A stretch of DNA of 64,000 bases, taken from contig NZ_BEGX01000077.1 in assembly GCF_002583555.1 (NCBI RefSeq), positions 178,217 to 242,216 on the forward strand, given 5' to 3'. The notes under the pieces were generated by a model. That model saw nothing but the letters and a program-made list of their open reading frames with translations, was not told the DNA's origin and ran no database searches. The position numbers and the translations under genes are program-made. The stretch comes from Pseudonocardia sp. N23. Lineage in GTDB: Bacteria > Actinomycetota > Actinomycetes > Mycobacteriales > Pseudonocardiaceae. This document shows, piece by piece, positions 1,151-31,193 of the stretch (positions within the stretch are counted from its first letter, which is position 1; each line of letters starts with the position of its first letter).

Positions 1151-1226
1151 CCTTGCTCCTGTCCTCGATCTGGTTGTGCGGTGGGTCGGACGTGGCGCGC
1201 GGGGACCGTGACGACCCCGCCCGCGG

Positions 1227-15199: not shown

Positions 15200-15452
15200 G
15201 CCGAGATCATGCCACCGGCCCTCTCGTGCCCACCTCGCGCCGGACCGGCCTGTCCGGCTCGTCACGCGGACGTGCTGCCCGGGCCGGCCGGTGCGCCCGC
15301 ACGGTCAGGTCGGGACCCGCAGCGCGAACCACAGCTCGGCGCGGACGCCGGGGGAGTCGAGGTCGCGGTCGCCCTGGCCTGGCTGTGAGGTGGTCCGACC
15401 GGTCCCCGGGGCCGACGGTGCCGGGGCGGCGGGGTGCGGGAGGATCACCGTC

Positions 15453-15902: not shown

Positions 15903-15916
15903 CCGCCCGACACCCC

Positions 15917-15976
15917 GCCGAGTTCGACCCCTGCCGAGTTCGACCCCTGCCGAGTTCGACCCCTGCCGAGTTCGAC
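15917..15976. repeat. 16-nt tandem repeat, 3.75 copies
   Basis: The unit GCCGAGTTCGACCCCT is repeated exactly at 15917, 15933 and 15949, with a 12-nt partial copy at 15965 followed by GTTCGAC. It lies between the convergent ends of aroQ and the SDR gene, is untranslated, and may be a slippage product near the 3' ends. No inverted symmetry strong enough for a terminator was seen. Confidence 0.85.
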
Positions 15977-16070
15977 GTTCGACTGGTTCCACCCATGATC
16001 GAACCAGGTCCCACGTCGACGTCGGCGGAGCGTGGCGTGAGCCCGCGGGACCCACAGGCCGGTGCGACGG

Positions 16071-16802
16071 TCAGTGCGGCGGGTCGAAACGGCGGGAGAG
16101 GCGGGCGAAGGTTGCGGGGACCGCGCCGTGCACCCGGGAGCCCAACGTCAGCCAGCGCGGCACGAACACCTCGGACCTGTTGCGCCCCACGGCGTCGACG
16201 ACTGCGGCCGCCACCCGGTCGGCGCTCACCGGCCGCGGGAACGAGCGGTGGTAGGCCGTGCCGCGGCGCGCGAAGTAGGGGGTGTCGACGGCGCCGGGGA
16301 GGATCGTCGTGACCCGCACCCCGGACTCCAGGCGCACCGCGTCGGCGAACCCGCGCAGCCCGGCCTTCGTCGCCGAGTAGACCGCCTCGCCGCCGACGCC
16401 GACCGCAGCGACGGAGGCGATGAACACGACGTGCCCGTCGCGGGTGCGCAGGGTGGGCAGCAGGGCCGTGGTGAGCCGGATCGGGGCGGCGAGGTTCACC
16501 GCGAGCATGGCGTCGGCGGTGGGGGCCGGGGTGTCCTGCACCGGACCGGCCCAGCCCAGGCCGGCGCCGTGCACCAGCAGCCGGACCCGGCCGTCGGCGG
16601 CGGCGCGGACCGTCCCGACCCCCTCGGCGGAGGCGAGGTCGGCGACGACGGCGCTGCCCCCGCAGGCGGCGGCGACGGCGTCGAGCCGGACCCGGTCACG
16701 CCCGCTGACGACGACGTCCCAGCCGGCGTCGGCGAGCCGCAGTGCGACCGCCGCACCGATGCCGGACGAGCCACCCGTGACCAGCGCGGTGCCGCTGCTC
16801 AC
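16071..16802 (-). CDS. Short-chain dehydrogenase/reductase
   Basis: 243 aa. The NAD(P) Rossmann motif is 'TGGSSGIG' near the N-terminus, and 'GRDRVRLD' suggests NADPH preference. The catalytic residues are in 'VFIASVAAVG' (Ser) and 'YSATKAGLR' (Tyr-x3-Lys). The C-terminal part ('FVPRWLTLGSRVHGAVP') resembles SDRs acting on lipids or hydrophobic substrates, but that is weak. It starts 4 bp after the DMT transporter stop on the same strand, so they are likely co-transcribed. Confidence 0.88.
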   Translation of the reverse strand: MSSGTALVTGGSSGIGAAVALRLADAGWDVVVSGRDRVRLDAVAAACGGSAVVADLASAEGVGTVRAAADGRVRLLVHGAGLGWAGPVQDTPAPTADAMLAVNLAAPIRLTTALLPTLRTRDGHVVFIASVAAVGVGGEAVYSATKAGLRGFADAVRLESGVRVTTILPGAVDTPYFARRGTAYHRSFPRPVSADRVAAAVVDAVGRNRSEVFVPRWLTLGSRVHGAVPATFARLSRRFDPPH

Positions 16803-16806
16803 GCGC

Positions 16807-17742
16807 TCACCCCGGCGCGGGGCCAGCGGGCCGGGCGCCGACGGCCTCCATGGCCTCGAAGCGGTGCAGCAGGTGGGTGCCGCGCGCGGTGATCAGTGCG
16901 ATCCCGGCGACGACCACCAGCGCGGCGATGCACTCCCCGACGAGCTTGCCGGGGGAGGTGTCGAGCTGCTCGCCCAGCCAGCCGACCCCGATCAGGACGG
17001 CGACGACCGGGTCGACGCTGGTGATCACCGCGACCGCGGGCGAGATCAGCCTGCCCTGCTGGAACGTGTTCTGGCTGAGCAGGAACCCGAGCGGCCCGAT
17101 CACACACACCACGTAGAGCGCCATGTGCCCGAACGGCTCGGTCCAGCCGATGCGCAGCTGCCCGGTGACGACCTTCATCAGCCCCGCGGTGACGCCGTAG
17201 AGCACCCCGGTGGCCAGGGCGAGTGCCAGCACCCGCGACGGGTGCGCGACCACCGCCGCGTAGACCAGGCAGCCCACGACGAGCGCGGCGAGCGCGATCC
17301 CCAGCGGCAGCCCGTCGGACAGGTCGAGGCTCTCGTGCGTCCCGCCGGGGATCGGCCGGGCCAGCAGCAGGAACGCCGAGAGGCCCGCGGCGCAGCACAG
17401 CGCGCCGAGCAGGATCACGACGTCGGGGCGGCGCCGGGCCATCAGCGCGGAGAACCCGGCGGCGAACGCGACGCCGGTGACCAGCAGCGGCTGCACGACG
17501 GCGATCGGCCCGAACGCGAGCGCGACGAGCTGCAGCAGCAACGCCGCGATCGTCGCGACGAGACCGAGCAGCCACATCGGCCGGCCGAACAGCTCGACCA
17601 GCAGCCGCGGGCTCAACGTCGGGGTGACCTCCACCTCCTTGGTGGCCCGCTGCTGGGCGGCCGTGGCCAGGCCGAACCCCGCGGCCCCCAGGACGGCAGC
17701 GGGGACCGCGATGAACATGCCCATCGAGGCGTCCAACGCCAC
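16807..17742 (-). CDS. DMT (EamA-like) family transporter
   Basis: 311 aa with about nine or ten hydrophobic helices in two EamA-like halves: 'WLLGLVATIAALLLQLVALAFG', 'PIAVVQPLLVTGVAFAAGF', then 'VLALALATGVLYGVTAGLMK' and 'AVITSVDPVVAVLIGVGWLGE'. The 'VQPLL' and 'DPVVAVLIGV' segments are the repeated EamA signature. This subgroup is an integral-membrane carrier of unknown solute. It is 27 nt downstream of the glycosyltransferase-acyltransferase fusion gene on the same strand, so it could share its transcript. An internal ATG at 17724 is an alternative start. Confidence 0.82.
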   Translation of the reverse strand: MALDASMGMFIAVPAAVLGAAGFGLATAAQQRATKEVEVTPTLSPRLLVELFGRPMWLLGLVATIAALLLQLVALAFGPIAVVQPLLVTGVAFAAGFSALMARRRPDVVILLGALCCAAGLSAFLLLARPIPGGTHESLDLSDGLPLGIALAALVVGCLVYAAVVAHPSRVLALALATGVLYGVTAGLMKVVTGQLRIGWTEPFGHMALYVVCVIGPLGFLLSQNTFQQGRLISPAVAVITSVDPVVAVLIGVGWLGEQLDTSPGKLVGECIAALVVVAGIALITARGTHLLHRFEAMEAVGARPAGPAPG

Positions 17743-17769: not shown

Positions 17770-20304
17770 TCACCCCCGGCCGCACACGTCACTCATATCG
17801 CGCAACGACGCGTGGAGACAATCAGGTATTCCCCCGATCCCGCGGACGATACCGGCGTCCACCGACACTCCCAGCGTCGTCCACCGCCCCCAGTTGAGGG
17901 CCCCGACGGCGAGCCCGACGCCCTCGGCCAGCGGCAGGACGGGGTAGACCTCGCTGATCAGGGCGCCGCGCATGTGCAGCGGCCGGCGCGCGCCGGGCAT
18001 GACCGAGGCGAGCAGATGGAAGAACCGCCGCCCGTACACGCCGCCGACCAGTGGCCCCTGCGCGCGGCCGGGCAGCACACCGAGCAGCCGCAGCACGGCG
18101 GCGGCGCCCTCGGGCTGCCCGCTCGTCGTGCCGCGGTCGAGGAGCTCGGCCACCCGGGCGACCCGCGCGGCGGGCGTCATCACCCCCGTCGGGAGGTCGA
18201 GCGACACCGCGGCGGTGCGGTTGCCGGCCGACCGGCTGCCGACACCACGGGCGGTGCGTGTGGTGAGCGGCACCATCGCGCGGACGCGGTCCGGGGCCCC
18301 GCCGGGGGCGTTCGCGTCGAGATGGCGGTGCAGGAACTCGGCGATGACGGCGAGCACCAGCGCGGTGGTGCCGACGCCGTGGCCACGCGCGGTCTCGCGG
18401 ACCTGCTTGCCGTCGAGCCGCACCCCGACGCGGTGGTGGCCGGGACCGCCGACCCGTCCGGTGAGCGGGGACCGGCCCGCGGTGCCCGCCGTCGCGAGGC
18501 CCGCGACGCCGCGGACGATCCGCGCCGCCGCGCGCACCCGGTCGCGGACGGTCGGCGGGCCGCCCGCGTCACCGGGGCCACGGCCGGAGGGACGACCGGG
18601 CAGCGCGGCCTCCTCGTCGGTGAGCAGCCGGATGAGGGCGTCGGTGACCGCGAGCCCGTCACCGAGCGCGTGGTGGACCTTGGCCAGCACCCCGATGCCC
18701 TCGCCACCGGTGTGCCGGGCGATCAGGATCTGCCAGCCGGTCCGCTCGGGGTCGACGGGGTCGGTGAAGAACGCGGTCAGCGCGTCGTCCCAGGTCGCGT
18801 GGTCGCCGCCGGGGCCGACGGAGACCGTGTCGGGGCGGACGTGGCGGGCGGGGTCGGGTGCGGGGTCGACGACCCAGCGCCGCGCCCGGCCGGGTTCGAC
18901 CGGCGCGAGGCGGCGGGTGAGCAGCTCGATGCGTCCCGCCCGCTCGGTGACCAGCTGCGCGACGTGGGCTTGCCACGCCGCGGCGACCCCGGGACCGGCG
19001 CCGGGCCCGGTGACGTCCTCGACCAGCAACCGGGCCCCGACCTGCTGCGGGACGTCGGCGGTCGCGGCGTGCAGGAACAGGGCGTCCTGGGCCCGGACCC
19101 GCTCGCCGGGAACGGTGTCGGGCCGGGCCGGGACGAGCGCGGCGACGTCGGCGGCGAGGTCGGCACCGGCGAGCCGGGCCCGCAGCGTCGCCGCGGTGTC
19201 GGCGCGGACGCCGGGGTCGACGAGCGCGGCGACGGCGTCGCGCAGCTCATCCGGACCGGGGCACACGGTCGCCAGGCCCTCGCGGGCGAGCAGCTCGGCG
19301 TTGGCGCGGCCGTGCCCGGGGATGGGGGCGAACAGCAGCAGCGGCCGCGCGCACGCCAGCGCCTCCAGCGCGGTGGCCCCGCCGGCGTTGGTGACGACGG
19401 CGTCGCAGTCGCGGGTGGTGGCAGCCGGGTCGGACACCCAGTCGACGACGCGCATCCGCACGCCGCGTGGGTGGTGCCCGGCGAGGCGTTCGAGCCGGGT
19501 CCGGACCGACGGCACCCGGCCCGCGCTGACCAGCACGTCGCCGCCGCCGTCGAGCACCGCGGCACAGGCCCCGGCGACGTCGCCGAACGCGAGCGACCCG
19601 CACGAGACGTACACCAGCGGCCGGGCCCGGACGGGCGCGTCGTCGGCGGGCGGTGCGAACGCGCCCGTCACGGGTAGCGCCGCGACCCGGACGGCGGCGC
19701 CGGGCACGGCGCGGCGCAACAGCCGCGCACCGCCGGGAGTGCTCACGAGGTGCAGGTCGAGGGCCTTGTCCCCCCACAGCGGGTGGGGTGCGGGGTCGGC
19801 GACGAGCGCGGCGGCCGGCACGGTCAGCCTGCCCGTGCGGCGCAGCCGGCCCAGGCCCAGCACCGCCTCGGGAAAGGTGGCGACGACGAGGTCGGGCTCG
19901 TGCGCGGCCAGCGCCGTCGCGATGCCGCGGGCGCTCCAGCGGGACACGACCGCGCGGGTCCCGGCCCGGAACGGCGGCACGTGCCACAGCGCCCGGAAGT
20001 ACAGCTCGTAGAGCCAGGGCAGGCGGCGCACGCACCCGGCGTAGATCGCGGGGAACAGCGACCCGGCGGCGGGCCCCATGGCGTCGAGTGTCTCGGTCCA
20101 GACGACCTCGACGCCGGGCCACAGTGCGCGGGCCTGCTCCTCGACGGCGCGGGCGGCGGCGTGATGGCCCTCGCCGAGGCTGCCGGTGACGAGCAGGACC
20201 CGCCGGGGCGCGCCGGGCGGCGGCGCCGGGGGAGCGGGAGGGGACGCGACCGCAGGGCGGGTCCCGGTGCCGGTTCCGACGGACGTGCTCGTGCCGGTGC
20301 TCAT
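17770..20304 (-). CDS. Fusion: MGDG synthase-like glycosyltransferase + WS/DGAT acyltransferase
   Basis: 844 aa in one uninterrupted frame. After a ~33-residue Thr/Pro leader, residues ~34-400 are a GT28/MGDG-synthase-like glycosyltransferase: 'SLGEGHH' (42-48), 'VYVSCGSLAFGDV' and the nucleotide-sugar segment 'VTNAGGATALEAL...APIPGHGRANAELL'. Residues ~405-844 are a wax ester synthase/diacylglycerol acyltransferase domain: 'RVRAQDALFLHAAT', the catalytic HHxxxDG as HHALGDG (544-550), 'VPLTTRTARG', 'GNRTAAVSLDLP' and 'GGIPDCLHASL'. Known families imply a sugar transfer to a lipid and an acyl-CoA ester-forming step; joining them suggests an acylated glycolipid. Divergent from a second glycosyltransferase of the same family and adjacent to the hopanoid block. 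The product is not predictable. Confidence 0.88.
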   Translation of the reverse strand: MSTGTSTSVGTGTGTRPAVASPPAPPAPPPGAPRRVLLVTGSLGEGHHAAARAVEEQARALWPGVEVVWTETLDAMGPAAGSLFPAIYAGCVRRLPWLYELYFRALWHVPPFRAGTRAVVSRWSARGIATALAAHEPDLVVATFPEAVLGLGRLRRTGRLTVPAAALVADPAPHPLWGDKALDLHLVSTPGGARLLRRAVPGAAVRVAALPVTGAFAPPADDAPVRARPLVYVSCGSLAFGDVAGACAAVLDGGGDVLVSAGRVPSVRTRLERLAGHHPRGVRMRVVDWVSDPAATTRDCDAVVTNAGGATALEALACARPLLLFAPIPGHGRANAELLAREGLATVCPGPDELRDAVAALVDPGVRADTAATLRARLAGADLAADVAALVPARPDTVPGERVRAQDALFLHAATADVPQQVGARLLVEDVTGPGAGPGVAAAWQAHVAQLVTERAGRIELLTRRLAPVEPGRARRWVVDPAPDPARHVRPDTVSVGPGGDHATWDDALTAFFTDPVDPERTGWQILIARHTGGEGIGVLAKVHHALGDGLAVTDALIRLLTDEEAALPGRPSGRGPGDAGGPPTVRDRVRAAARIVRGVAGLATAGTAGRSPLTGRVGGPGHHRVGVRLDGKQVRETARGHGVGTTALVLAVIAEFLHRHLDANAPGGAPDRVRAMVPLTTRTARGVGSRSAGNRTAAVSLDLPTGVMTPAARVARVAELLDRGTTSGQPEGAAAVLRLLGVLPGRAQGPLVGGVYGRRFFHLLASVMPGARRPLHMRGALISEVYPVLPLAEGVGLAVGALNWGRWTTLGVSVDAGIVRGIGGIPDCLHASLRDMSDVCGRG

Positions 20305-20405: not shown

Positions 20406-21551
20406 GTGGAGATGATCGGCCCGCACGACGGGCCGGGCAGGGTCCTGGTGCTCTCCGCACCGGTCGGGGAGGGCCACGTCGCCGCGGCCCGGGCACTGGC
20501 GGCGCGGATGCGGGCGTTGTGGCCGCGCACGGTGGTGCGCGAGGTGGAGAGCACCGGCAGCGCGCACCGCGACGCCACCCTGGCCCGCAGCTACGCGGCG
20601 ACGATGCGCTGGGCGCCAGGCCTCTACGGCGTCGCCTACGACGCGCTGCTGCACGCCCCGCGGGCCGCCGGGCCGTTCAAGGCGGTGACCGCGGCCCGCA
20701 TCGGCCACGACCTCGCCGGACTCGTCGACGCCGAGCACCCCGACCTCGTCGTGTCGACCTACCCGATGACCAGCGGCGGGCTGGCGTGGCTGCGCCGCCA
20801 CGGCAGGCTGCCGGGGCGCAGCGTCGCCGTCGTCACCGACATGGCCGTGCACCCGTACTGGGCGTGGCGCGACGTCGACGAGACGTGGACGCTGCTGGAG
20901 TCCTCCCGCGACCAGGCACTGGCCGCGGCCCCCGGCGCCGACGTGCGGGTCGCGCCCGCAGCCGTCGACGTCCGGTTCGCCCCGTGCGACCGGGTCGAGG
21001 CCCGCGCCGGCCTCGGCTGGCCGGGAGACGGGTTCACCGTGCTCGTGTCCGGGGGGTCCCTCGGCTTCGGGGACGTGACGGAGGTCGTCGACGCGGTGCT
21101 CGCCGCGCGGCCCCCCGTGCGGGTCGTCGTGCTCTGCGGGCGCAACGAGCGGCTGCGCACGGAGCTGGCGGCCCGCGGTCTGCCGGAGGCGACGTTGCGC
21201 GTCGTCGGCTGGACCGACCGGGTGCCCGACCTCGTCGCGGCGAGCGACGTCGTCCTCACCACCGCGGGCGGAGTCATCGCGACCGAGGCGCTCGCGGTGG
21301 GGCGTCCGGTCGTGTTCGCCGCGCCCGTCGCCGGGCACGGCCGCGCCGGGGCGCGGCTGGCCGAGGAGGCGGGCCTCGCACTGGTGTGCCCGCGCCCTGC
21401 CGACGTCACCACCACCATCGCCCGGCTGGCTGCCGACCCCGGGGTCACGGCGCCGCTGCGGGCGCGGGCCGCCGAGTTCGGGGCCCGTGACCTCGACGCC
21501 GCACTGCGGGACCTGGCCGTGCGGGTCCGTACCCCCGCTGCGCGGGCCTGA
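20406..21551 (+). CDS. MGDG synthase-like glycosyltransferase (GT28 superfamily)
   Basis: 381 aa. Same fold as the N-terminal half of the divergent fusion protein: 'VLSAPVGEGHVAAARALAARM' at the N-terminus, 'HPDLVVSTYPMTSGGLAWL', the strand-loop 'VLVSGGSLGFGDVTEVVD', and the sugar-nucleotide site 'TTAGGVIATEALAVGRP...APVAGHGRAGARL'. Relatives transfer a hexose to diacylglycerol at the membrane (MGDG_synth plus GT28 C-terminal domain). No acyltransferase domain is attached here. GTG 20406 is probably leaderless; ATG 20412 is possible. Sharing a promoter region with the fusion gene suggests the two sugars are added to the same lipid or related lipids. Confidence 0.85.
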   Translation: MEMIGPHDGPGRVLVLSAPVGEGHVAAARALAARMRALWPRTVVREVESTGSAHRDATLARSYAATMRWAPGLYGVAYDALLHAPRAAGPFKAVTAARIGHDLAGLVDAEHPDLVVSTYPMTSGGLAWLRRHGRLPGRSVAVVTDMAVHPYWAWRDVDETWTLLESSRDQALAAAPGADVRVAPAAVDVRFAPCDRVEARAGLGWPGDGFTVLVSGGSLGFGDVTEVVDAVLAARPPVRVVVLCGRNERLRTELAARGLPEATLRVVGWTDRVPDLVAASDVVLTTAGGVIATEALAVGRPVVFAAPVAGHGRAGARLAEEAGLALVCPRPADVTTTIARLAADPGVTAPLRARAAEFGARDLDAALRDLAVRVRTPAARA

Positions 21552-21565: not shown

Positions 21566-22246
21566 TCAGCCCACGCGGACGGGACCGGCGACGGGCAACC
21601 CGACGCGCAGCCGGATGCCCTGCCCGCGCATCGAGCGGCGGAACCACCACAGCGATGTCACGATCCCCAGACCGACCAGCGAGTACGAGCCCGCCGTGGA
21701 CACCATCAGATAGTTGCCGACGGTCTGGGTCGCGAGCACCGTGAGCGTCGTCGCCCCGTTGATCAGGAACACGATCGCCCACAGCAGTGACACCCGCTTG
21801 AAGAACCGCTTCATGTGCGGGTGCGCGGTGAGGCTGTCGGGGAAGGCGCAGAAGTCGTCGGCCAGCTTGGCCAGCAAGGGACGGTCGAAGCCGAGGGTGG
21901 CCAGCAGCAGCAGGGCGAAGACGAAGTTCTGCACCGTCGGCTGCAGGAAGTACAGGAACGCGCTTCCCGTCCACAGCCCGATGACGGTGCGCGCCACCAG
22001 CAGCACCGTGCTGATGACGAGGATCGCTGGGACGCGGCGTCGCAGGACCAGCCGGCGCCCGATCGCCACCGCCGACCAGGACAGGGCCGCGAGCAGTCCG
22101 GCGTCGAAGCCCGCGTGGGTGAACAGCACCCAGAACAGGGCAAGCGGGATGAGCGTCGACTCGAGAAGTGGACGCCCGGCCTGCCGCAGGAGCGACCCGA
22201 TCGGAGGGAGGTGGATCAGGGTCGTCACGCGGGGGTGGTCCGGCAT
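21566..22246 (-). CDS. VC0807-like integral membrane protein
   Basis: 226 aa with about six hydrophobic helices. The conserved stretch 'WTGSAFLYFLQP' and 'FFKRVSLLWAIVFLINGATTL' is what I remember of the VC0807 family, membrane proteins of unknown function distantly like septation protein A. Start ATG 22246 was chosen; a GTG at 22228 is the alternative. It follows hpnH on the same strand after 118 bp and ends 14 bp from the convergent glycosyltransferase gene. Its place downstream of a hopanoid operon hints at a membrane-lipid role, but nothing more can be said. Confidence 0.75.
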   Translation of the reverse strand: MPDHPRVTTLIHLPPIGSLLRQAGRPLLESTLIPLALFWVLFTHAGFDAGLLAALSWSAVAIGRRLVLRRRVPAILVISTVLLVARTVIGLWTGSAFLYFLQPTVQNFVFALLLLATLGFDRPLLAKLADDFCAFPDSLTAHPHMKRFFKRVSLLWAIVFLINGATTLTVLATQTVGNYLMVSTAGSYSLVGLGIVTSLWWFRRSMRGQGIRLRVGLPVAGPVRVG

Positions 22247-22364: not shown

Positions 22365-23369
22365 TCAGCTTCCGGTCGCCGCGCGGAGTGACTCGCGCAG
22401 CGACCCCATCGTCGCGAAGACTGCTGACGGCTCGTATCCGCAGTGCGCCATGCAGTTGGCGCACCGTTCGTCCTTGCCCCGGCCGAACGCGTCCCAGTCC
22501 GTCTCGTCGATGAGTTCCCTGTACGTGGAGACATACCCGTCGTCGAGCAGATAACACGGCTTCTGCCAACCGAGCAGAGAATATGACGGAATGGCCCAGG
22601 CCGTGCAGTTCAGATCGACCTTGCCCTCGAGGAAGTCGAGGAAGACCGGCGAGTGGTTGAGCCGCCACTTCTTCCGCCGCCCGCCGTCGAACGCCTTGCG
22701 GAACAGCTCCCGGGTCTGCTCGACGCCGAGCCAGTGCTCCTGGTCGGGCGCCTTCTCGTAGGCGTACCCGGGGGAGATCTGCATGTTGTCGACGCCGAGG
22801 TCGTCGTTGAGGAAGTCCAGCACGTCGATGACGTCCTGGGGGGTGTCGGTGTCGAAGAACGTCGTGTTGGTGTTGACGCGGAAACCGAGCTTCTTGGCCT
22901 GCTCGATCGCGGCCACCGCCTGGTCGAACACGCCGTCCTTGCTCACCGACGCGTCGTGGCGCTCACGGAGACCGTCGATGTGCACCATCCACGCGAAGTT
23001 CTTGTGCGGCGAGAACTTGTGGATGTGCTTGGGCAGCAGCACCGCGTTCGTGCACAGGAACACGATCTTGTTGCGGTCGAGCAGCTCCTGGACGATCTGC
23101 TCGATCTGTGGGTGCATCAGCGGCTCGCCACCTGCGATGGAGACCATCGGGGCGCCGGACTCCATGATCGCGCCCACCGCCTGTTCGACGGGCATCCGCT
23201 GCTTGAGCAGTGCGGCGGGCTGCTGGATCTTTCCGCAGCCGTTGCACTTCAGGTTGCACGCGAACAGCGGTTCGAGCTCGACGAGCAGCGGGAACTTGTC
23301 GACACGCTTGATCTTCTGCTTCATCAGGTACGCGCCCAGCCGCACGGACTGTCGCATCGGCATCGCCAT
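22365..23369 (-). CDS. hpnH: Hopanoid biosynthesis radical SAM protein HpnH
   Basis: 334 aa. The radical SAM cluster is C38-x3-C42-x2-C45 in 'ACNLKCNGCGK', followed by 'GGEPLMHPQIEQI'. HpnH adds the adenosyl group to diploptene to give adenosylhopane, the first step of side-chain extension. The C-terminal Cys residues ('ERCANCMAHCGYEPSAV') match the family's SPASM-like tail. ATG overlaps the preceding stop by one base (TAATG) and has a strong GGAGG RBS. It is the last gene of the hopanoid operon proper. Confidence 0.93.
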   Translation of the reverse strand: MAMPMRQSVRLGAYLMKQKIKRVDKFPLLVELEPLFACNLKCNGCGKIQQPAALLKQRMPVEQAVGAIMESGAPMVSIAGGEPLMHPQIEQIVQELLDRNKIVFLCTNAVLLPKHIHKFSPHKNFAWMVHIDGLRERHDASVSKDGVFDQAVAAIEQAKKLGFRVNTNTTFFDTDTPQDVIDVLDFLNDDLGVDNMQISPGYAYEKAPDQEHWLGVEQTRELFRKAFDGGRRKKWRLNHSPVFLDFLEGKVDLNCTAWAIPSYSLLGWQKPCYLLDDGYVSTYRELIDETDWDAFGRGKDERCANCMAHCGYEPSAVFATMGSLRESLRAATGS

Positions 23370-24898
23370 TACCGGCTCACCTCCTTGGGAAGGGTGAATC
23401 TGATGTTCTCCGAACCGGTCGAGGTGGCCGTGACGGTCACCGGGCCCAGCCCGGACACACAGGAGACGACCTCGTCGACGAGGTCGTCGGGGGCGGACGC
23501 GCCCGCCGACAGCCCGATCCGCCGCACCCCGGCGAACCAGGCCAGGTCGAGCTCGCCGACGTCCTCGACGAGATGGGCGGGCACGCCGTCGCGCGCGGCG
23601 ACCTCGGCGAGGCGCCGCGAGTTGGACGAGTTCGGCGACCCGACGACCACGACGAGGTCGACGTCGGCCGCGACCGCGCGGACGGCCCGCTGGCGGTTGG
23701 TCGTCGCGTAGCAGATGTCGTCCTGGCGGGGGGCGCGGATCGCGGGGAACCGCTCGCGCAGGATCGTCGCGATCCGCATCGCCTCGTCGACCGCGAGGGT
23801 CGTCTGCATCGCGTAGGCGACCCGGCTCGCGTCGGGGACCTCGACGGTGCGGGCGTGCTGCTCGTCCTCGACGACCGTGACCTGCGACGGTGCCTCACCG
23901 ACGGTGCCCTCGACCTCCTCGTGGTCGGAGTGCCCGATGAGCAGGACCGTCTGGCCGCGGCCGGCGTGCCGTCTCACCTCGGTGTGCACCTTGGCCACGA
24001 GCGGGCAGGTGGCGTCCACGACGGCGAGGCCGCGGGCGTCGGCGTCGGCGCGGACGGCGGGGGAGACCCCGTGCGCGGCGAGGACGACGTGGGCGCCGCG
24101 GGGGACCTCGTCGACCTCCTGGACGAACACCGCGCCGCGCTCGGTGAGCCGCCGCACGACGTGGGCGTTGTGCACGATCTGGCGGCGCACGTAGACGGGT
24201 GCGCCGAACTGGTCGAGCGCCCGGTCGACGATCTCGATCGCCCGCTCCACCCCCGCGCAGAACGACCGTGGCTCGGCGAGCGTGACGGTGCGCGGACCGG
24301 TGGCGTCGAGCCAGGCGCGCAGCGCGGGTGCCGTCCTGCGCAGTGTCCGCAGTGCGGTGAGGCCGCGGGCGGGGGTGCCGGGCCGCAGCAGCGGCGCACC
24401 CGGGGTGTCGACGACGACGCGCACCACCGCGAACGGTCCGCCCGCCGCGGCGGCGGCGAGGACGGCGGACTCCATGTCGACGGCCAGCGCGCCCGTCGTG
24501 GCCAGCGCGATCCGGCGGTCGCCGTCGACGACCTGCGCGGTGGTGACGACCGGCCCGACGTGCACCCGCAGCCCCTGCGCGCGCAGCGCGGCGGCGAGCG
24601 GGCGGGCCGTCGGGACGGTGACGGGGCCGCGGGCGCCGGTGGCGTCGCGGACCTCGTCGGCGACGACGACGTCACCGGGCCGGACCTGCGGCGCCAGCGC
24701 CCCCGCCACGCCCGCGACGAGGACGGGTCGTGGCCCGTCGGCGGCCAGCGCCGCGACGGCACCGCCGGCACGGCGGCCCATCCCGGTCCGCACGACCCGC
24801 ACCCCGCGCAGCGCGCCGACGTCGAGGGCGCGGCGCTCGACCCCGAGCGGCGCACAGACCACCGGGGGGCCGAGGGTCGCCGGGAGCGGCGTGGTCAC
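23369..24898 (-). CDS. ispH: Fusion: HpnG-like hopanoid phosphorylase + IspH (HMBPP reductase)
   Basis: 509 aa in one frame. Residues 1-~203 are a nucleoside-phosphorylase fold ('VAGVAGALAPQVRPGDVVVADEV', 'LAVDMESA' at 139-146), the HpnG family that removes adenine from adenosylhopane to give ribosylhopane. Residues ~205-509 are a full IspH with its three cluster cysteines C214 ('FCAGVERA'), C298 ('DATCPLVAK') and C396 ('DICYATTNRQ') and 'AAHGVSP'; this makes IPP and DMAPP from HMBPP. There is no visible linker. Both halves look intact. One polypeptide thus joins the last isoprenoid-precursor step to hopanoid tailoring. GTG start overlaps the cyclase stop by 4 nt. Confidence 0.92.
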   Translation of the reverse strand: MTTPLPATLGPPVVCAPLGVERRALDVGALRGVRVVRTGMGRRAGGAVAALAADGPRPVLVAGVAGALAPQVRPGDVVVADEVRDATGARGPVTVPTARPLAAALRAQGLRVHVGPVVTTAQVVDGDRRIALATTGALAVDMESAVLAAAAAGGPFAVVRVVVDTPGAPLLRPGTPARGLTALRTLRRTAPALRAWLDATGPRTVTLAEPRSFCAGVERAIEIVDRALDQFGAPVYVRRQIVHNAHVVRRLTERGAVFVQEVDEVPRGAHVVLAAHGVSPAVRADADARGLAVVDATCPLVAKVHTEVRRHAGRGQTVLLIGHSDHEEVEGTVGEAPSQVTVVEDEQHARTVEVPDASRVAYAMQTTLAVDEAMRIATILRERFPAIRAPRQDDICYATTNRQRAVRAVAADVDLVVVVGSPNSSNSRRLAEVAARDGVPAHLVEDVGELDLAWFAGVRRIGLSAGASAPDDLVDEVVSCVSGLGPVTVTATSTGSENIRFTLPKEVSR

Positions 24899-26796
24899 GA
24901 GGAGTGCCCGTTCACGTAGCGGCCGAGCGCCGAGATCGGGAAGACCATCCGGTACAGGTGGTAGCGGATGTAGAACGCGCCGGGGAAACCGGTCCCGGTG
25001 TAGAGCGTCTCCTCCCACGACCCGTCGGGCAGCTGGGTGTCGACGAGGTACCGCACGCCGCGTTCCACGGCGTCGGAGCTCTCCCCGGCCGCCAGCAGCG
25101 CGAGCAGTGCCCACGCCGTCTGCGACGGGGTCGAGGCGCCCCGCCCGATCCAGGACGGGTCCTCGTAGGAGCGCAGGTCCTCGCCCCAGCCGCCGTCGTC
25201 GTTCTGGTGACGTTCGAGCCAGCCGACGGCCCGGCGGACCGGCGGGGCATCGGCATCGATGCCCGCGGCGACGAGCGCGGGGACGACACCGCCGGTGCCG
25301 TAGACGTGGTTGGCGCCCCAGCGGCCGAACCAGGAGCCGTCGCGCTCCTGAGCGGCGAGCAGCCAGTCGACGCCGCGGCGGCACTCCTCGGTGGCGGCCA
25401 GCCCCTCGGCGGCCATCATCTCCACGACGTGCGCGGTGACGTCGGCGGACGGCGGGTCGATGACGGCGCCGAAGTCGCAGAACGGCAGCTTGGTGACGAG
25501 CACACGGGTGTTGTCGGCGTCGAAGGCGCCCCAGCCACCGTCGCGCGACTGCATGCCGATCGTCCAGGCGACGCCGCGGTCGACCGCCGCCCGGAGCCGC
25601 TGCGGGTCGGGGTGGGTGACGCGGCGCAGCGCGAGGACGACCTCGGCGGTGTCGTCGGTGTCGGGGTAGCCGTCGTTGTCGAACTCGAACGCCCAGCCGC
25701 CGGGGGCGAGGTCGGGGCGGCGCACGGACCAGTCGCCGCGGACGTCCGGGATCTCCTCGGCGAGCATCCAGTCGGTGGCGGCCAGGACGTCGGGGTCGTC
25801 GGCGGGGACACCGGCGTCGAGCAGCGCGGTCACGGCCAGGCACGTGTCCCACACCGGCGACTGGCACGCCTCGAGCCGCCGCACGGTGCCCTCGGGGGTC
25901 TCCTCGCGCACCAGGAACCGGTCGAGGCCCCGGATGCCCGCGGCGACGGCGGGGTGGTCGAGCGGGTAGCCCAGCAGGTGCAGGGCCAGCAGCGAGTACA
26001 CCCACGGCGGCTGGATGCCGCCCCACGAGCCGTCGGCCTCCTGGCGGGCCAGCACCCACTCCGCGGCCCGGCGCATCGCGAGCCTGCGGACGCCCCGCAG
26101 AGGGCGCCGCGAGTAGGCGTGCAACACCCGGTCGAGCCGCTGGAACGCCCCCGTCCAGGTCCACGGCTTGGCGAGCGGTTCCGCGGCCGCGCCGGTGCGC
26201 AGCTCGTCGACACCGAAGGGCAGCGGGCGGCAGGGCCGCAGCGTTGCGACGACCGTGAGCGGGACGACGGTCTGGCGGGCCCAGCACGCCCAGTCGTAGA
26301 CGTTGAGCGGGAACCACGTCGGCAGGAAGATCAGCTCGGGGGGCATGTCGGGGAGCTCGTCCCACGACCACGCGCCGAACAGCGCCATCCAGATCCGGGT
26401 GAAGACGCGGCTGCGTTCGAGCCCGCCCTCGGCCCGCACGAACGTCTGCGCCGACCGCATGTGCGGGTCCGCGGGGTCGTCGCCGGCAAGCCGCAGCGCC
26501 ACCCACGCCTCGATGGTCGTCGACAGGTCGGCGGGACCGTCCTGGAAGGTCGCCCAGCTGCCGTCGGCGCGCTGCCGGGACCGGATCCAGCGGGCCGCCT
26601 CCAGGGTCTCGGTGTCGGTGCGGATGCCGAGGAACTCGCGCAGGAGGAGGTCCTCGGCGTCCATGGTCACGTTGGTCTCGAGCTCGCCCTGCCACCAGCC
26701 GTCGGGGTGGCGGCCGGCGCGCAGGAACGCGACGGCCGCGTCCAGCGAGGCCTGCGGCGTGCGGGTCGCGAGGTGCTCCGGCGCCGTGAGGGTCAT
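24895..26796 (-). CDS. shc: Squalene-hopene cyclase
   Basis: 633 aa, normal length. It cyclises squalene to hopene/hopanol at the membrane. The protonating motif is D379-T-D-D382-T-A. QW repeats are spread through the protein ('GSWATFQDGPADLST', 'GSWGGIQPPWVYS', 'GGWGAFDADNTRV', 'GSWFGRWGANHVYG', 'GGWGEDLRSYED', 'GSWEETLYTGTGFP'). Start ATG 26796 overlaps the prenyl synthase stop by one base. It lies between the prenyl synthase and the HpnG-IspH fusion, so the squalene route runs through the operon in order. Confidence 0.96.
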   Translation of the reverse strand: MTLTAPEHLATRTPQASLDAAVAFLRAGRHPDGWWQGELETNVTMDAEDLLLREFLGIRTDTETLEAARWIRSRQRADGSWATFQDGPADLSTTIEAWVALRLAGDDPADPHMRSAQTFVRAEGGLERSRVFTRIWMALFGAWSWDELPDMPPELIFLPTWFPLNVYDWACWARQTVVPLTVVATLRPCRPLPFGVDELRTGAAAEPLAKPWTWTGAFQRLDRVLHAYSRRPLRGVRRLAMRRAAEWVLARQEADGSWGGIQPPWVYSLLALHLLGYPLDHPAVAAGIRGLDRFLVREETPEGTVRRLEACQSPVWDTCLAVTALLDAGVPADDPDVLAATDWMLAEEIPDVRGDWSVRRPDLAPGGWAFEFDNDGYPDTDDTAEVVLALRRVTHPDPQRLRAAVDRGVAWTIGMQSRDGGWGAFDADNTRVLVTKLPFCDFGAVIDPPSADVTAHVVEMMAAEGLAATEECRRGVDWLLAAQERDGSWFGRWGANHVYGTGGVVPALVAAGIDADAPPVRRAVGWLERHQNDDGGWGEDLRSYEDPSWIGRGASTPSQTAWALLALLAAGESSDAVERGVRYLVDTQLPDGSWEETLYTGTGFPGAFYIRYHLYRMVFPISALGRYVNGHSS

Positions 26797-27839
26797 CAGA
26801 ACTCCCTGTCGACGAGGTGGTGGGCCAACGCGACGAGCTCTCCCGTGGGTACGGGTGCGAGCCCGGCGCCGGTCACGGCGCCGAGGGCCAGGTCGCGGCG
26901 GCGGCGTGCCTCGGCGGCCGCCCATTCCCGGCCCCCGCCCGCCGCGACCAGCCGCGCCGCGGCGTGCAGCTCGTCCTCCGCGGGTTCGCCCTCCGTCGCC
27001 AACCAGCGCGCGAGCTCCCGGCCGGCCTCGCCGCCGTTGCGGATCGCGAACGTCACCGGCAGCGACTTCTTGCGCGACCGGAGATCGGACAGCACAGGCT
27101 TGCCGGTGACCGCCGGGTCGCCCCAGATGCCCAGCAGGTCGTCGACCAGCTGGAACGCCGTCCCGACCTCGTGGCCGTAGGTGTGCAGTGCCTCGGTCTG
27201 CGCGGCCGGGGCACCGGCCAGCACCGCACCGATCGACGCGCTCGCCGCGAGCAGCGACCCGGTCTTGCCCGACGCCATCGACAGGCACTCGGCCACACCG
27301 ACGTCGTCGCGGGTCTCGAACGCCAGGTCCTCGGCCTGGCCCCGGATCAGCTCCCGGGTGGTGACGGCCAGCAGTGCCGCGGCGGCCGCGGCATGCGCCG
27401 ACGGCGCCTCCAGCAGCACCTCCTGCGCGAGCGCGAGCATCGCGTCGCCGCACAGGATCGCCGACGACGCGCCCCACTGCACCCACACCGTGGTGCGGTG
27501 CCGCCGCTCGGCGTCGCCGTCCATCAGGTCGTCGTGCAACAGCGAGAAGTTGTGCACCAGCTCGACCGCGACCGCACCCGGGACACCCGTGTCGACGTCG
27601 GCGCCCGCCGCGGTGGCCGAGAGCAGCGCCAGCGCAGGCCGCACGGCCTTGCCCCCACCGGCGCCGGGCGAGCCGTCGAGCTCGGTCCAGCCCAGGTGGT
27701 AGCGGGCCTGGGTGCGGCTGGCGTCGTCGAGCCGGTCGACGGCGGCCTGCAGGGCCGGGGTGACGACGTCGCGGCCACGGCGCAGCACCTCGGTGGCGAC
27801 ATCGCGGTGGTCGCTCGACCGGCCCAGGGTCGCGGTCAT
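26796..27839 (-). CDS. Polyprenyl diphosphate synthase (FPP/GGPP type)
   Basis: 347 aa. The first aspartate-rich motif is 'DDLMD' (103-107), the second 'DDLLG' (233-237) with a further Asp at 241, and the basic residues 'GGKAVRP' lie upstream. These enzymes condense IPP with allylic diphosphates; within a hopanoid operon the product is most likely farnesyl diphosphate for squalene. The Ala-rich residues before the first motif do not allow a firm chain-length call. Start ATG 27839 overlaps the hpnE stop (ATGA). The C-terminus ends one base into the cyclase start. Confidence 0.9.
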   Translation of the reverse strand: MTATLGRSSDHRDVATEVLRRGRDVVTPALQAAVDRLDDASRTQARYHLGWTELDGSPGAGGGKAVRPALALLSATAAGADVDTGVPGAVAVELVHNFSLLHDDLMDGDAERRHRTTVWVQWGASSAILCGDAMLALAQEVLLEAPSAHAAAAAALLAVTTRELIRGQAEDLAFETRDDVGVAECLSMASGKTGSLLAASASIGAVLAGAPAAQTEALHTYGHEVGTAFQLVDDLLGIWGDPAVTGKPVLSDLRSRKKSLPVTFAIRNGGEAGRELARWLATEGEPAEDELHAAARLVAAGGGREWAAAEARRRRDLALGAVTGAGLAPVPTGELVALAHHLVDREF

Positions 27840-29248
27840 GCCGCCACCCCCGCGGCGACGACGGGCCGGGCGAGTGCGGCCGCGGCGGCCGCATCCCCGC
27901 TGCGGACCGCGCCCTCCATCGTCGCGGGCCAGCCGGTGGCGGTCCACGCCCCGGCGACGCTCAGGCCGGGCAGGTTCGTGACCGGCCCGGGTCGCAGCGC
28001 GGCCTGCCCGGGCCCGGCGCGGAAGGTGGCGTGCGGCTCACGCGTCACGAAGAAGTCCAGCACCCGTGCGTGTGCCGCGGCCGGGAGGACGGCGGTCAGC
28101 GCGGGCAGCATCAGCTCCCGCAGCGCCGCCAGCGGGAGGCCGACGAGATCGTCGGCCGCCGACAGCGACACCGCCACGTACTGGGCGCCCGGCGGGTGCG
28201 CGGCGCGTGCCCCCGACGACGCGGTGCGGTCGAACATCCACTGCACCGGGCTGTCGACGGCGGCGGCGAAAGGGTGGTGCAGCACCCGGCGGTCGTAGAC
28301 GACGTGCACGTCGACGATCGGGGAGCTGCCCAGGCGATCCGCCCACTCCGCGGGGAGACCGAGCGCGCCCTCCGGCAGCAGCCGGGCGGCGACGCTGGGC
28401 GGGACGGCGGACACGATCCGGTCGACCACGAGCTCCTCCTCTCCGCCGGGCCCGGGATCGCCGGGTCCGGCCTGCGCGTGTGCGGCCTGCGCGTGGGTGA
28501 GGGCGATCCGCCACCCGTCGTGGCCCCTCGTGAGCGTCCGGACCTTCGCCGAGGTCCGGACGTCGACGCCTGCGGTGACCAGGGCCCGGCGGGCGGCGTC
28601 GTCGTGGAGCCGGCCCAGCGGGACCCGTGCCCAGCCGACGTCGCCCGCGGCTGCGTCGGTGAGCAGGCCCAGCTGGAACACCGTCGCGGCCAGGGCGAGC
28701 GAGGCGTCGGCGGCGCGGGCGTTGAGCGTCGCGACGCCGACGAGGTCCCACAGCGTCTGCACGGCCCGCGGCCGCTGCCCGTGCGCGGCGAGCCAGTCAC
28801 CGAAGCTGCGGGCGTCGACGGCCGGGTCGTCCGGGTCGACGCGGCCCAGCGCGAGCGCGCCGCGCAGCACCCGCAGCCGGTCGGCGAGCGGCATCGGGCC
28901 GTAGCGCGCCAGCGCGGCGCCCAGGTGCAGCGGCGCGGGCAGCCCGGACCGGCGCAGCCGCGCGGGCCGGGCACCCGGGGCGAGGACCGGGATGTCGAGG
29001 CGGTCCTGCAGCTCCACGTCGTCGCGGACCCCGAGGCGGTCCAGGAAGGCCAGGTAGGAGGTGCAACAGCGCAGGACGACGTGCTGGCCGGTGTCGACGT
29101 CGAGCTCACCGCGACGGAACGACCCGGCGACGCCGCCGAGCCGCGCCCGCGACTCCCACAACGTCACCGCTGCGCCGGCGTCCGCGCAGCGCAGCGCAGC
29201 GGCGACCCCGGCTAGCCCGCCTCCGACCACCCCCACGTGCACGGTCAC
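27836..29248 (-). CDS. hpnE: Hydroxysqualene dehydroxylase / squalene-associated FAD oxidoreductase HpnE
   Basis: 470 aa. The N-terminal dinucleotide-binding motif 'VGVVGGGLAGVAAAL' with 'WESRARLGGVAGSF' marks the FAD-dependent amine oxidase/desaturase superfamily. 'DTGQHVVLRCC' and the C-terminal 'LSVAGAWTATGWPATMEGAVRSG' are typical of HpnE, which reduces hydroxysqualene to squalene after HpnC and HpnD. GTG 29248 puts the FAD motif three residues from the N-terminus and overlaps the hpnD stop by 4 nt. Confidence 0.92.
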   Translation of the reverse strand: MTVHVGVVGGGLAGVAAALRCADAGAAVTLWESRARLGGVAGSFRRGELDVDTGQHVVLRCCTSYLAFLDRLGVRDDVELQDRLDIPVLAPGARPARLRRSGLPAPLHLGAALARYGPMPLADRLRVLRGALALGRVDPDDPAVDARSFGDWLAAHGQRPRAVQTLWDLVGVATLNARAADASLALAATVFQLGLLTDAAAGDVGWARVPLGRLHDDAARRALVTAGVDVRTSAKVRTLTRGHDGWRIALTHAQAAHAQAGPGDPGPGGEEELVVDRIVSAVPPSVAARLLPEGALGLPAEWADRLGSSPIVDVHVVYDRRVLHHPFAAAVDSPVQWMFDRTASSGARAAHPPGAQYVAVSLSAADDLVGLPLAALRELMLPALTAVLPAAAHARVLDFFVTREPHATFRAGPGQAALRPGPVTNLPGLSVAGAWTATGWPATMEGAVRSGDAAAAAALARPVVAAGVAA

Positions 29249-30177
29249 GCCCGCACACCCCCCGGCGCCCGCCCGGCCAGCGCACGCACCGCGACGCCGA
29301 TCTTCTGCCGGCCCGACAGGGACCGGCGCTGGTGGTAGACCGACGGCGGGTCGGCGGCGATGTCCTCGAGGAGCTGCCGGTAGATCCCGGCCATCGCGGT
29401 CGCGCAGGCGGCGCTGCGCCGGTCGAGCAGGGGGACCAGCCGCAGCCCGTCTGCGTACCAGCCGCGGGCCCGTTCGGCGGCGAACCGGACGAGCTCCGCG
29501 AGCGCGCCGTCCGGGTCGGTCAGGTTGCCGTGCTCGTCGAGGCGCAGGTCGACGCCGAACCGGGCGAGCTCGCCGGTCGGCAGGTAGATGCGGCCGTTCT
29601 GCAGGTCCTCGCGGATGTCGCGCAGGATGTTCGTCTGCTGCAGCGCGATGCCCAGCGCGTCGGCGAACGCGGGTGCCTGCGGGTCCGGCCGGGAGCCGAA
29701 GATGCCCAGGCACAGCCGCCCCACCGAGCCCGCCACCTGCCGGCAGTAGCCGGCCATGTCGTCGAAGGTGGCGTAGGGCGCGCTCGCGCCGGGTTCGTCG
29801 TCCATCCGCACGTCGGCCTCGACACCGTCGACCAGCTCGTCGAACGCTCCGAGCGGGATCGGGTAGTGCCGGGCCGCGTCGGTGACGGCGACCAGCACCG
29901 GGTCGTGCGGGTCGGGGTCGGCCTCACGGGCGTGGCGCACCGAGTCGCGCACCTGCTCCAGGGCAGCGAGCTTCCCCGCGGTCGACGGGTCTCCACCGGC
30001 GTCCCCGTCGCCGATGTCGTCGATGCGTCTGGCCAGCGCGTAGACCGCCGAGAGCGCCGCACGCTTACCGGGGGGCAGCAGCCGGATGCCGTAGTAGAAG
30101 TTCCGCGCCTGGTCCCGGGTGATCGCCTCGCTCGCCGCGTAGGCGTGGTCGAGGGGGCTGGACGGGCTGCGGCTCAT
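29245..30177 (-). CDS. hpnD: Presqualene diphosphate synthase HpnD
   Basis: 310 aa, trans-isoprenyl diphosphate synthase (squalene/phytoene synthase) fold. The two aspartate motifs are 'RRIDDIGDGD' and 'NILRDIREDLQNGRIYLP', with 'SVGRLCLGIFG' between. HpnD joins two farnesyl diphosphates to presqualene diphosphate. The start ATG 30177 overlaps the hpnC stop by 4 nt. The second motif is complete here, unlike in the partner HpnC. Confidence 0.92.
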   Translation of the reverse strand: MSRSPSSPLDHAYAASEAITRDQARNFYYGIRLLPPGKRAALSAVYALARRIDDIGDGDAGGDPSTAGKLAALEQVRDSVRHAREADPDPHDPVLVAVTDAARHYPIPLGAFDELVDGVEADVRMDDEPGASAPYATFDDMAGYCRQVAGSVGRLCLGIFGSRPDPQAPAFADALGIALQQTNILRDIREDLQNGRIYLPTGELARFGVDLRLDEHGNLTDPDGALAELVRFAAERARGWYADGLRLVPLLDRRSAACATAMAGIYRQLLEDIAADPPSVYHQRRSLSGRQKIGVAVRALAGRAPGGVRA

Positions 30178-31193
30178 ACGGCGCTCCGGTCTCGTCGTGT
30201 GTTCCGGTCTCGTCCTGTGCTCCGTGCTACGGCACGTCGTACGGCAGCCGGGGTCACCGTGCCGGCGAGGTCGCGCGCCAGGTGCCGGACGACGTCGCGG
30301 CGCTGCGTCTGCGGGCTGCCGGCCAGGACGTCGAAGTCGTTGCGCCGCAATGCATCGGCGGCGGCACGGCCGCCCGCCGCATAGCCTGCGACGGCGACCC
30401 GGGCCCAGCCCCGCAGTCCGGCGATCAGCGGCGCGCCGTCGTCGAGCAACGCGCACGCGCGGCCGGTGACCTCGGCCAGCAGGGCCCGCAGCCCCGGGGA
30501 GGTGTGCGGGTCGTCCAGATCGGACTCGGCCACGCCGAACGCCTCCAGGTCGGCGACGGGCAGGTAGACCCGGCCCCGGGCACGGTCCTCCGCGACGTCC
30601 TGGCAGTGCTCCAGGATCTGCAGGGCCGTGCAGATGCAGTCGGACCAGCGCTGCAGGTCGGACCCGGGAGGCGCGTCCACACCGAACACCGCCAGCACCA
30701 TGCGCCCGATCGGGTCCGCCGAGAGCACGCAGTACCCGAGCAGGTCGTCCCACGTGCGGTACCGCGTGACGTACTGGTCGGCGAGGTTCGCCGCGACGAG
30801 CCGTTCGAACGGTTCCCGCGTCAGCCCGCACGCCCGCGCCGTCGGCACCAGGCGGCGCAGGACCGGCTCCCCGGGGCCCGCACCGTCGTCCCAGACCCGG
30901 CGCAGGTCGGTGCAGAACCCGTGCAGCCGGGCCGTCCGGTCGGCGGCCTCCTCCGGCGTGACCGGGCGCGGACCCCCTTGGGCGGAAGGGGATTCGTCGG
31001 GTCTGTCGTCGCCGTCGCCGATGTCGTCGATGACCCGGACGACGTCGTAGACCGCTCGCAGATGCGCACGGGTGGCTCCCGGCAGCACCCGCAGTGCCAC
31101 CGGGAAGTTCTCGGACCGCTCCGCGTGCCGCAGCCGGGCCTCCGACGGCCCGGTCGCGGTCACCGGCGCCGCCCCCGTCCGCCGATCTCCCAC
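30174..31193 (-). CDS. hpnC: Hydroxysqualene synthase HpnC
   Basis: 339 aa, paralogue of HpnD. Motifs: 'ENFPVALRVLP', 'VRVIDDIGDGDD' and 'EHCQDVAEDRARGRVYLP' (the second motif is QDVAED). HpnC converts presqualene diphosphate to hydroxysqualene. GTG 31193 was chosen because a -35/-10 pair lies just upstream; GTG 31163 is an alternative. It is the first gene of the operon that runs through hpnH. A short Pro/Ser-rich insert follows the first Asp motif. Confidence 0.9.
   Translation of the reverse strand: MGDRRTGAAPVTATGPSEARLRHAERSENFPVALRVLPGATRAHLRAVYDVVRVIDDIGDGDDRPDESPSAQGGPRPVTPEEAADRTARLHGFCTDLRRVWDDGAGPGEPVLRRLVPTARACGLTREPFERLVAANLADQYVTRYRTWDDLLGYCVLSADPIGRMVLAVFGVDAPPGSDLQRWSDCICTALQILEHCQDVAEDRARGRVYLPVADLEAFGVAESDLDDPHTSPGLRALLAEVTGRACALLDDGAPLIAGLRGWARVAVAGYAAGGRAAADALRRNDFDVLAGSPQTQRRDVVRHLARDLAGTVTPAAVRRAVARSTGRDRNTRRDRSAV

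Follow-up and report, generated by a model that had tools for sequence, protein, structure and literature searches.

A glycosyltransferase-acyltransferase fusion in the hopanoid gene neighbourhood of Pseudonocardia sp. N23 and its relatives

Introduction

Hopanoids are sterol-like membrane lipids of bacteria, and their fossils are widely used as bacterial biomarkers. The stretch of DNA analysed here (the window), 64,000 nucleotides of Pseudonocardia sp. N23 (contig NZ_BEGX01000077.1), carries close to its hopanoid biosynthesis operon a gene that joins in one polypeptide a GT28-type glycosyltransferase, resembling UgtP and monogalactosyldiacylglycerol (MGDG) synthase, and an acyltransferase of the wax ester synthase/diacylglycerol acyltransferase (WS/DGAT) family, called the GT half and the AT half below. 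The next genes downstream encode a transporter of the drug/metabolite transporter (DMT) superfamily and a short-chain dehydrogenase/reductase (SDR). A preliminary description of the locus had taken the protein for an enzyme that glycosylates and acylates the same lipid, giving a new acyl-glycolipid, the first of the two families being known to add hexose to diacylglycerol.

The fused gene and its domains

The reading frame has exactly the coordinates first described (17770-20304), lies on the minus strand, and is intact over 844 codons, from an ATG start to a sole stop at its end. Pfam assigns MGDG_synth (PF06925) to residues 47-211 (E 9e-11; 42.6 bits against a curated cut-off of 25), WS_DGAT_cat (PF03007) to residues 405-605 (E 1.1e-13), and WS_DGAT_C (PF06974) to residues 694-837 (E 8.3e-13), the last two also above their curated cut-offs. 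The motifs SLGEGHH and HHALGDG lie at the residues already reported for them (42-48 and 544-550), and the GT half accordingly combines PF06925 with the GxGH N-terminal motif (GEGHH, 44-48), while the AT half combines both WS/DGAT domains with HHxxxDG. The C-terminal donor domain of GT28 enzymes (PF04101) is not matched by the window protein at E 0.001; it is matched by the related fusions L152, L153, and L079, GGAT..E is conserved in the C-terminal part of the GT half, and the alignment to PDB sequences extends through the donor part. NCBIfam and PDB sequence searches agree with Pfam, with the UgtP-like diglucosyl-diacylglycerol synthase models (PRK13609), 9wde, and MGD1 (4wyi) matched by the GT half, and TIGR02946, 6chj, and 7nxg by the AT half. 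The GT half is far under the UgtP-like equivalog cut-off (84 against 500 bits), the AT half does not reach the TIGR02946 subfamily cut-off (163.1 against 309.95 bits), and TIGR03472 (HpnI) is absent among the NCBIfam matches returned for the fusion protein. Compared with two other listed WS/DGATs of the same genome, the AT half shows 33% and 30% identity and falls in a different clade.

An AlphaFold model built from six sequences is weak (mean pLDDT 58.8, pTM 0.46); its best fold matches, 6chj and 7nxg, are consistent with a WS/DGAT fold, and no glycosyltransferase is found among its 50 listed Foldseek matches, so that the GT half gains no support from the model. A His-for-Gln change in the GT donor motif (GHGRAN) was considered as a signature of donor specificity and rejected, as the paralogues have the same change. 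One polypeptide with two enzyme domains, a GT28-type glycosyltransferase and a WS/DGAT, is well supported.

Conservation and distribution of the fusion

The full-length fusion is present in independent genomes, some of them single-contig assemblies, at identities from 90% down to ∼35%. A frameshift or another sequencing or assembly artefact joining two genes has next to no probability, being refuted by the same fusion in many independent assemblies, and no point was found in its favour. Within the genus of the window, 24 of 62 genomes carry the fusion or its pieces (45-100% identity), with the copies in G028, G036, G047, and G054 broken or cut by contig ends in fragmented assemblies, and a divergent copy whose motifs are altered occurs in one further genome, G057. 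In a sample of 120 Pseudonocardiaceae genomes, 44 match at E 1e-45, and the matches in 40 of these (16 of 46 genera) span both halves; the other four, all from genus g26, cover the GT half only. At the same threshold, the genome of the window is the sole match in a class-level sample of 128 genomes (0 of the 127 others). An order-level sample of 121 genomes at E 1e-30 gave 13 matches, comprising eight hits to a single half and five full-length fusions, three of them in Pseudonocardiaceae (window included) and two in other families (G307 and G337), for which both halves were confirmed by Pfam.

The catalytic motifs are strongly conserved, with H545, D549, and E314 present in 56/56 fused proteins, H544 in 54/56, and H47, the histidine of the GT motif, in 49 of the 50 sequences with a residue aligned at that position. 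For the GT and AT halves, respectively, dN/dS is 0.134 and 0.135 between the window and its nearest relative, L037, 0.177 and 0.251 against L039 (from P. dioxanivorans CB1190), and 0.29-0.31 and 0.40-0.50 against L092, L093, and L095 (L038, compared in a wrong reading frame at 28% and 25% identity, was left out). Purifying selection acts on both halves, less strongly on the AT half in the more distant pairs.

The hopanoid neighbourhood

For comparison of gene order, ∼20 kb around the fusion was fetched from many genomes and the neighbours were clustered by similarity, using a codon-usage-based gene caller that may miss or trim genes. The clustering took in 66 regions (the window and 65 other loci), 56 of them with a counted fusion; outside this count are L131 (a full-length match missed by the caller), L072-L075 and L106 (GT only), L107 (AT only), and L108-L110 (contig-cut or broken). 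At least one hopanoid gene lies in the fetched flank of 53 of the 56 fusion loci, which rules out chance adjacency and places the fusion beside hopanoid genes more strongly than the window alone, from which this neighbourhood had first been noted, could show. Squalene-hopene cyclase (SHC) is present in 50 of these loci, polyprenyl synthetase in 49, HpnH in 48, the HpnE-like protein in 47, a DMT homologue in 53, and an SDR in 51, the last a similarity-cluster count that may take in unrelated SDRs and is less strict than the ordered one, in which fusion, DMT, and SDR follow each other on one strand (46/56). The DMT gene stands directly 3' of the fusion on the same strand in 51/56 loci, and in 20 of these the two genes overlap by 4 bases. 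Across genera, the fusion is thus kept with SHC, HpnH, and HpnC-D-E as well as with the DMT and SDR genes. The three loci without a hopanoid flank are L079 (from G145, which has no SHC match), L083, whose hopanoid cluster was found further along (in L144), and L105 (the G057 copy).

The arrangement itself differs between genera. In the commonest form, the fusion is convergent with HpnH; in the genus of the window and in g42, a divergent stand-alone GT stands between the fusion and the hopanoid operon; and in L088, L103, L123, and L124, the fusion lies on the HpnC side. The link between the fusion and the hopanoid genes has therefore survived rearrangement. In the window (Table 1), HpnH is the first hopanoid gene from the fusion side, and a single small membrane-protein gene separates it from the stand-alone GT, the divergent enzyme of the same family already seen in the first reading. 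Among the loci examined, this GT adjoins the fusion only in the two genera just named, and it was rejected as half of a split homologue, since it forms a separate group in the tree and coexists with the fusion. The HpnG-like/IspH protein has a homologue (by similarity cluster) in 39/56 fusion loci, some called copies being shorter, and other genera, too, have PucR-type genes adjoining the AT gene or the hopanoid cluster (L133:3659-4915, L141:15179-16393).

Table 1. Features of the window and PAP2-WS/DGAT genes of other genomes (coordinates without a locus prefix refer to the window)
Feature	Coordinates	Strand	Basis
SDR oxidoreductase, third gene of presumed operon	16071..16802	-	Gene order across loci
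DMT-superfamily transporter, candidate translocator, directly downstream of fusion (27 bp gap)	16807..17742	-	NCBIfam DMT_1 above cut-off, Pfam EamA
Fused GT28 (MGDG-synthase/UgtP-like) + WS/DGAT, 844 aa	17770..20304	-	Pfam, NCBIfam, PDB, orthologues, motifs, dN/dS
WS/DGAT half, residues ~401-840; HHALGDG 544-550	17785..19104	-	Pfam, NCBIfam, PDB, motifs, fold match
GT half, residues ~32-392; GEGHH 44-48, NAGGATALE 306-314, PIPGHGRANA 327-336	19129..20211	-	Pfam, PDB, alignment
Stand-alone GT28, divergently transcribed, 40% identical to GT half	20406..21551	+	Sequence comparison
Small membrane protein, DUF3159/IspA-septation like	21566..22246	-	Homologue in 35/56 fusion loci
HpnH, adenosyl-hopene transferase	22365..23369	-	TIGR03470 above cut-off
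HpnG-like phosphorylase (under HpnG cut-off) fused to IspH (LytB), 509 aa	23369..24898	-	NCBIfam
Squalene-hopene cyclase (SHC)	24895..26796	-	Pfam, neighbour clustering
Polyprenyl synthetase	26796..27839	-	Pfam, neighbour clustering
Amine oxidase family protein, presumably HpnE by position	27836..29248	-	Family by Pfam
HpnD-like squalene/phytoene synthase	29245..30177	-	Best NCBIfam match HpnD, just under cut-off
HpnC-like squalene/phytoene synthase	30174..31163	-	Best NCBIfam match HpnC, just under cut-off
PucR-type (HTH_30) regulator, divergent from HpnC	31319-32512	+	Pfam
IS110-type transposase fragment, beyond hopanoid operon	~34831-35049	-	Pfam DEDD_Tnp_IS110
PAP2-WS/DGAT proteins of genus g26	L139:669-2630, L140:831-2792, L141:16394-18355, L142:825-2885	+, +, -, +	In hopanoid clusters
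PAP2-WS/DGAT proteins of family f40	L154:9119-11212, L156:2625-4628	-, +	In hopanoid clusters

Co-occurrence with squalene-hopene cyclase

SHC was searched with PF13243 at E 1e-40 in what are apparently the same 120 family genomes (handles and tallies agree; unlisted rows were not compared) and was found in 52 of them. All but one of the 40 fusion genomes are SHC-positive (39/40), and a single fusion occurs among the 68 SHC-negative genomes (Fisher p 4e-19). By genus, the fusion is found in 16 of 22 SHC-positive genera and in 0 of 24 SHC-negative ones (p 8e-8). Similarly, in the genus of the window, where 26 of 62 genomes have SHC, the fusion is present in 24/26 SHC-positive and 1/36 SHC-negative genomes, the two SHC-positive genomes without it being G046 and G055, which has the AT half only. 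The fusion is therefore present with SHC and absent without it, barring these exceptions and the SHC-positive family genomes that lack it, namely G071 (74% complete), G084, G121, G148, and G168 (g24), G086, G123, G150, and G170 (g26), G089 (g29, with a weaker SHC match), G135 and G157 (g43), and G152 (g31). The SHC loci that have no HpnH nearby (L136-L138 and L143; HpnH was checked near the locus only) all come from fusion-negative genomes, as would be expected if a C35 polyol is the acceptor. The one SHC-negative genome of the window's genus with a copy, G057, encodes a divergent GT-WS/DGAT frame (L105:8769-11063, plus strand) in which both motifs are altered (GERYDA and HHALGDER) and which has no hopanoid or DMT neighbours; it is perhaps a decaying orphan. 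Together with the conserved gene order, a genetic link of the fusion to hopanoid synthesis is well supported.

Lineages that keep one half

The two halves can also be followed separately in lineages that have only one of them. In g24, a WS/DGAT with an intact HHALGDG is found in all four genomes upstream of the SDR gene and convergent with HpnH, the usual place of the fusion. Three of the four frames are longer and retain ∼115-125 upstream residues of the GT N-terminal domain, a remnant that scores 29.5-50.9 bits against a profile of the fused GT halves (600 shuffled versions scored at most 7.6 bits) and falls under the cut-off of Pfam MGDG_synth; nothing is left of the GHH motif or of the donor domain. 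The g24 genomes also lack the DMT orthologue, showing only matches of ∼30% identity. On this case, the AT half is apparently able to work without the GT half. In g26, conversely, all four genomes have the GT half with its DMT neighbour away from the hopanoid cluster, and the cluster contains a WS/DGAT joined to a PAP2 domain. An apparent extra N-terminal domain on the g26 GTs (L072-L075) was discarded as a misjudged start, the DMT gene just upstream filling that stretch in 4/4 genomes.

In the trees, the g26 GTs nest among the fused GTs and the g24 ATs among the fused ATs (support 100/98 in each case). The trees therefore fit a single ancient fusion, g24 having apparently lost the GT half later, as well as the DMT orthologue, and g26 the AT half. 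The homologues are thus mostly fused, and the exceptions nest inside fused groups as expected of later losses; this is not the pattern of two separate genes with unrelated neighbours that had been named as grounds for giving up the first reading. The monophyly of the fused GTs hinges on rooting with other GTs (a 92/85 branch). Of the fusions from outside the family, L152 falls within the fused group for both halves, and the AT half of L153 forms a long branch of unresolved place, for which a domain swap or a separate history is possible. A further AT-only gene, from the 72% complete genome G055 (L107 ∼76-1400, minus strand), has an intact HHALGDG, nests among the fused ATs, and lies beside two DMT-type genes, the N-terminal part of its frame being noise. 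The GT tree was made without L105 and L106 and the AT tree without L105; the trees that include the outside fusions omit L105, L080, and near-duplicates (AT) and L105, L106, and near-duplicate or additional rows (GT).

Two related modules bear on the origin of the parts. The PAP2-WS/DGATs lie near HpnC in g26 and, in f40, beside HpnH (L154) or beside polyprenyl synthetase and SHC (L156); those of f40 and g26 group together (99/93) outside the AT clade of the GT fusion. They are a second WS/DGAT lineage in hopanoid clusters and an independent link between WS/DGATs and hopanoids. Elsewhere in the source genome (G000:C63), a paralogous stand-alone GT28 overlaps a DMT gene (L159:13917-15032 and 15032-16039, plus strand), and this pair suggests that GT and DMT together form an older module for making and moving a glycolipid, to which the AT would have been added later.

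Proposed function and alternative readings

With moderate confidence, and from gene content and order, the fusion is proposed to be a hopanoid-tailoring enzyme with two activities, one glycosylating a C35 hopanoid polyol and the other esterifying it. Its product would probably be a hopanoid decorated with both sugar and fatty acid, and the DMT protein would move it. SHC, HpnH, and the HpnG-like protein would supply the polyol. The GT28 half would transfer a hexose from a UDP-sugar to one of its hydroxyls, acceptor and sugar both being predicted, and the WS/DGAT half, through its HHxxxDG histidine, would transfer a fatty acyl group from acyl-CoA to a hydroxyl on either the sugar or the side chain of the polyol. 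Transport of the completed lipid across the membrane may fall to the DMT protein, flippases of lipids being known in this superfamily, and the SDR might prepare the polyol acceptor or an intermediate by acting on the polyol or on ribosylhopane. This order of steps, and their falling on one molecule, are likewise predicted. The GT is tied to the DMT neighbour, which stays with it after loss of the AT half in g26, and the AT is tied to the hopanoid cluster, in which it stays after decay of the GT half in g24. HpnI (TIGR03472) is above its cut-off in 0 of 120 family genomes, with G160 matched under the cut-off; it has no match in the 14 control genomes either, which leaves this search with no positive control. 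Of the earlier reading, the real fusion, the conservation of both halves, and the hopanoid operon as neighbour are supported, and action of both halves on the same lipid molecule is a prediction. The likelier acceptor is a hopanoid polyol and not diacylglycerol, given the ties to SHC and HpnH that gene order and co-occurrence reveal.

Several observations weigh against this proposal. The co-occurrence counts ignore phylogeny, and the fusion and the hopanoid genes could have been lost together simply as neighbours. Six of the 22 SHC-positive genera have no fusion, two of them (g24 and g26) keeping one half, and G145 (93% complete) has the fusion with no SHC match. In 5/56 loci, the DMT gene does not directly follow the fusion; it is nearby and divergent in g12 and ∼12 kb off in g40. 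Since g24 retains the AT with no functional GT, a single molecule need not undergo both reactions, and no biochemistry or lipid data were found for fusion-bearing species. Furthermore, the relationship of the GT half to UgtP and MGD1 suggests diacylglycerol as the default acceptor.

The strongest of the alternatives, possible though on balance unlikely, keeps a single pathway and assigns the two activities to different molecules, so that the AT directly esterifies the hopanoid polyol (an acyl-bacteriohopanetetrol type of product; bacteriohopanetetrol, BHT) and the GT produces another compound, either a hopanoid glycoside of its own or a glycolipid that the DMT protein exports. It would account for g24, where the hopanoid cluster keeps AT, SDR, and a remnant of the GT and the DMT orthologue is missing, for g26, where GT and DMT are kept elsewhere and another WS/DGAT occupies the cluster, for the GT-less PAP2-WS/DGATs in hopanoid clusters of another family, and for the weaker constraint on the AT half in distant pairs; fatty-acyl BHT esters do exist in a bacterium, according to one report (PMC12583986). 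Retention of one polypeptide in 16/46 genera is, however, more easily explained by sequential steps, and purifying selection acts on both halves. More doubtful is an acylated glycosyl-diacylglycerol, an ordinary glycolipid merely co-regulated with hopanoids since both order the membrane. UgtP and MGD1, the closest characterised relatives of the GT half, use diacylglycerol, and the paralogous GT-DMT pair lies away from hopanoid genes in the same genome; against this stand the near-exclusive co-occurrence with SHC, the adjacency kept in several arrangements, and the changed motifs in the SHC-negative genome G057. Very improbable, finally, is a WS/DGAT half that makes storage triacylglycerol or wax ester with the GT half incidental, for although this is the default activity of the family and TIGR02946 is matched, the match is only 163 of the 309.95 bits required, the identity to the two other listed WS/DGATs of the genome is low and their clade another, and the gene lies in hopanoid clusters.

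Relation to known systems

The alignment with UgtP/MGDG synthase (PF06925, PRK13609, 9wde, 4wyi) covers most of the GT half, which keeps GxGH and GG.T..EA; unlike these enzymes, the fusion carries an acyltransferase, lies in hopanoid clusters, and probably has a hopanoid acceptor. The AT half shares HHxxxDG, both Pfam domains, and the best fold matches of the weak model with WS/DGATs (PF03007/PF06974, TIGR02946; 6chj, 7nxg), but it is divergent from TIGR02946, forms the C-terminal part of a GT fusion, and has its own clade. Similarly, the PAP2-WS/DGATs of other actinobacterial hopanoid clusters (L139-L142, L154, and L156) are WS/DGATs near hopanoid genes, whereas their partner is a PAP2 domain and their AT lies outside the GT-fusion clade. 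The HpnI-HpnK-HpnJ route to BHT cyclitol ether also involves a hopanoid-cluster glycosyltransferase acting after HpnH/HpnG (PMC12583986), but HpnI (TIGR03472) belongs to another family and the fusion is a GT28 with an acyltransferase. No described enzyme of GT28 + WS/DGAT architecture was found in the open-licence literature, in agreement with the preliminary description, although this is weak evidence of absence. The component families are known; judged from sequence, their combination in one protein within hopanoid clusters would be a new candidate branch of hopanoid tailoring.

In work on Alphaproteobacteria published in 2025, one species was reported to have fatty-acyl BHT, and the surroundings of the hpn cluster offered no obvious new candidate genes (PMC12583986). 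The same study describes the enzyme converting ribosylhopane to BHT as not established (PMC12583986), and N-acyl and glycosyl hopanoids are described in thermophiles, with HpnI as the known hopanoid glycosyltransferase, in two sources (PMC12583986, PMC8537080). One candidate for the unassigned reductase from ribosylhopane to BHT is the SDR of the window. A wider and more tentative proposal is that acylated hopanoid glycosides may be made in Actinobacteria by a single-polypeptide glycosyl-acyltransferase and exported by a dedicated DMT flippase, that the WS/DGATs, recruited twice into hopanoid clusters in GT and PAP2 fusions, may be the missing acyl-hopanoid synthases, and that the SDR may be that reductase.

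Significance

Composite hopanoids are being found by mass spectrometry, and many of their genes are unassigned. The GT-AT fusion, the DMT protein, and the SDR offer a specific and conserved set of candidates in a culturable actinobacterial family, and the lineages that have lost one half predict which hopanoid modification would be missing where.

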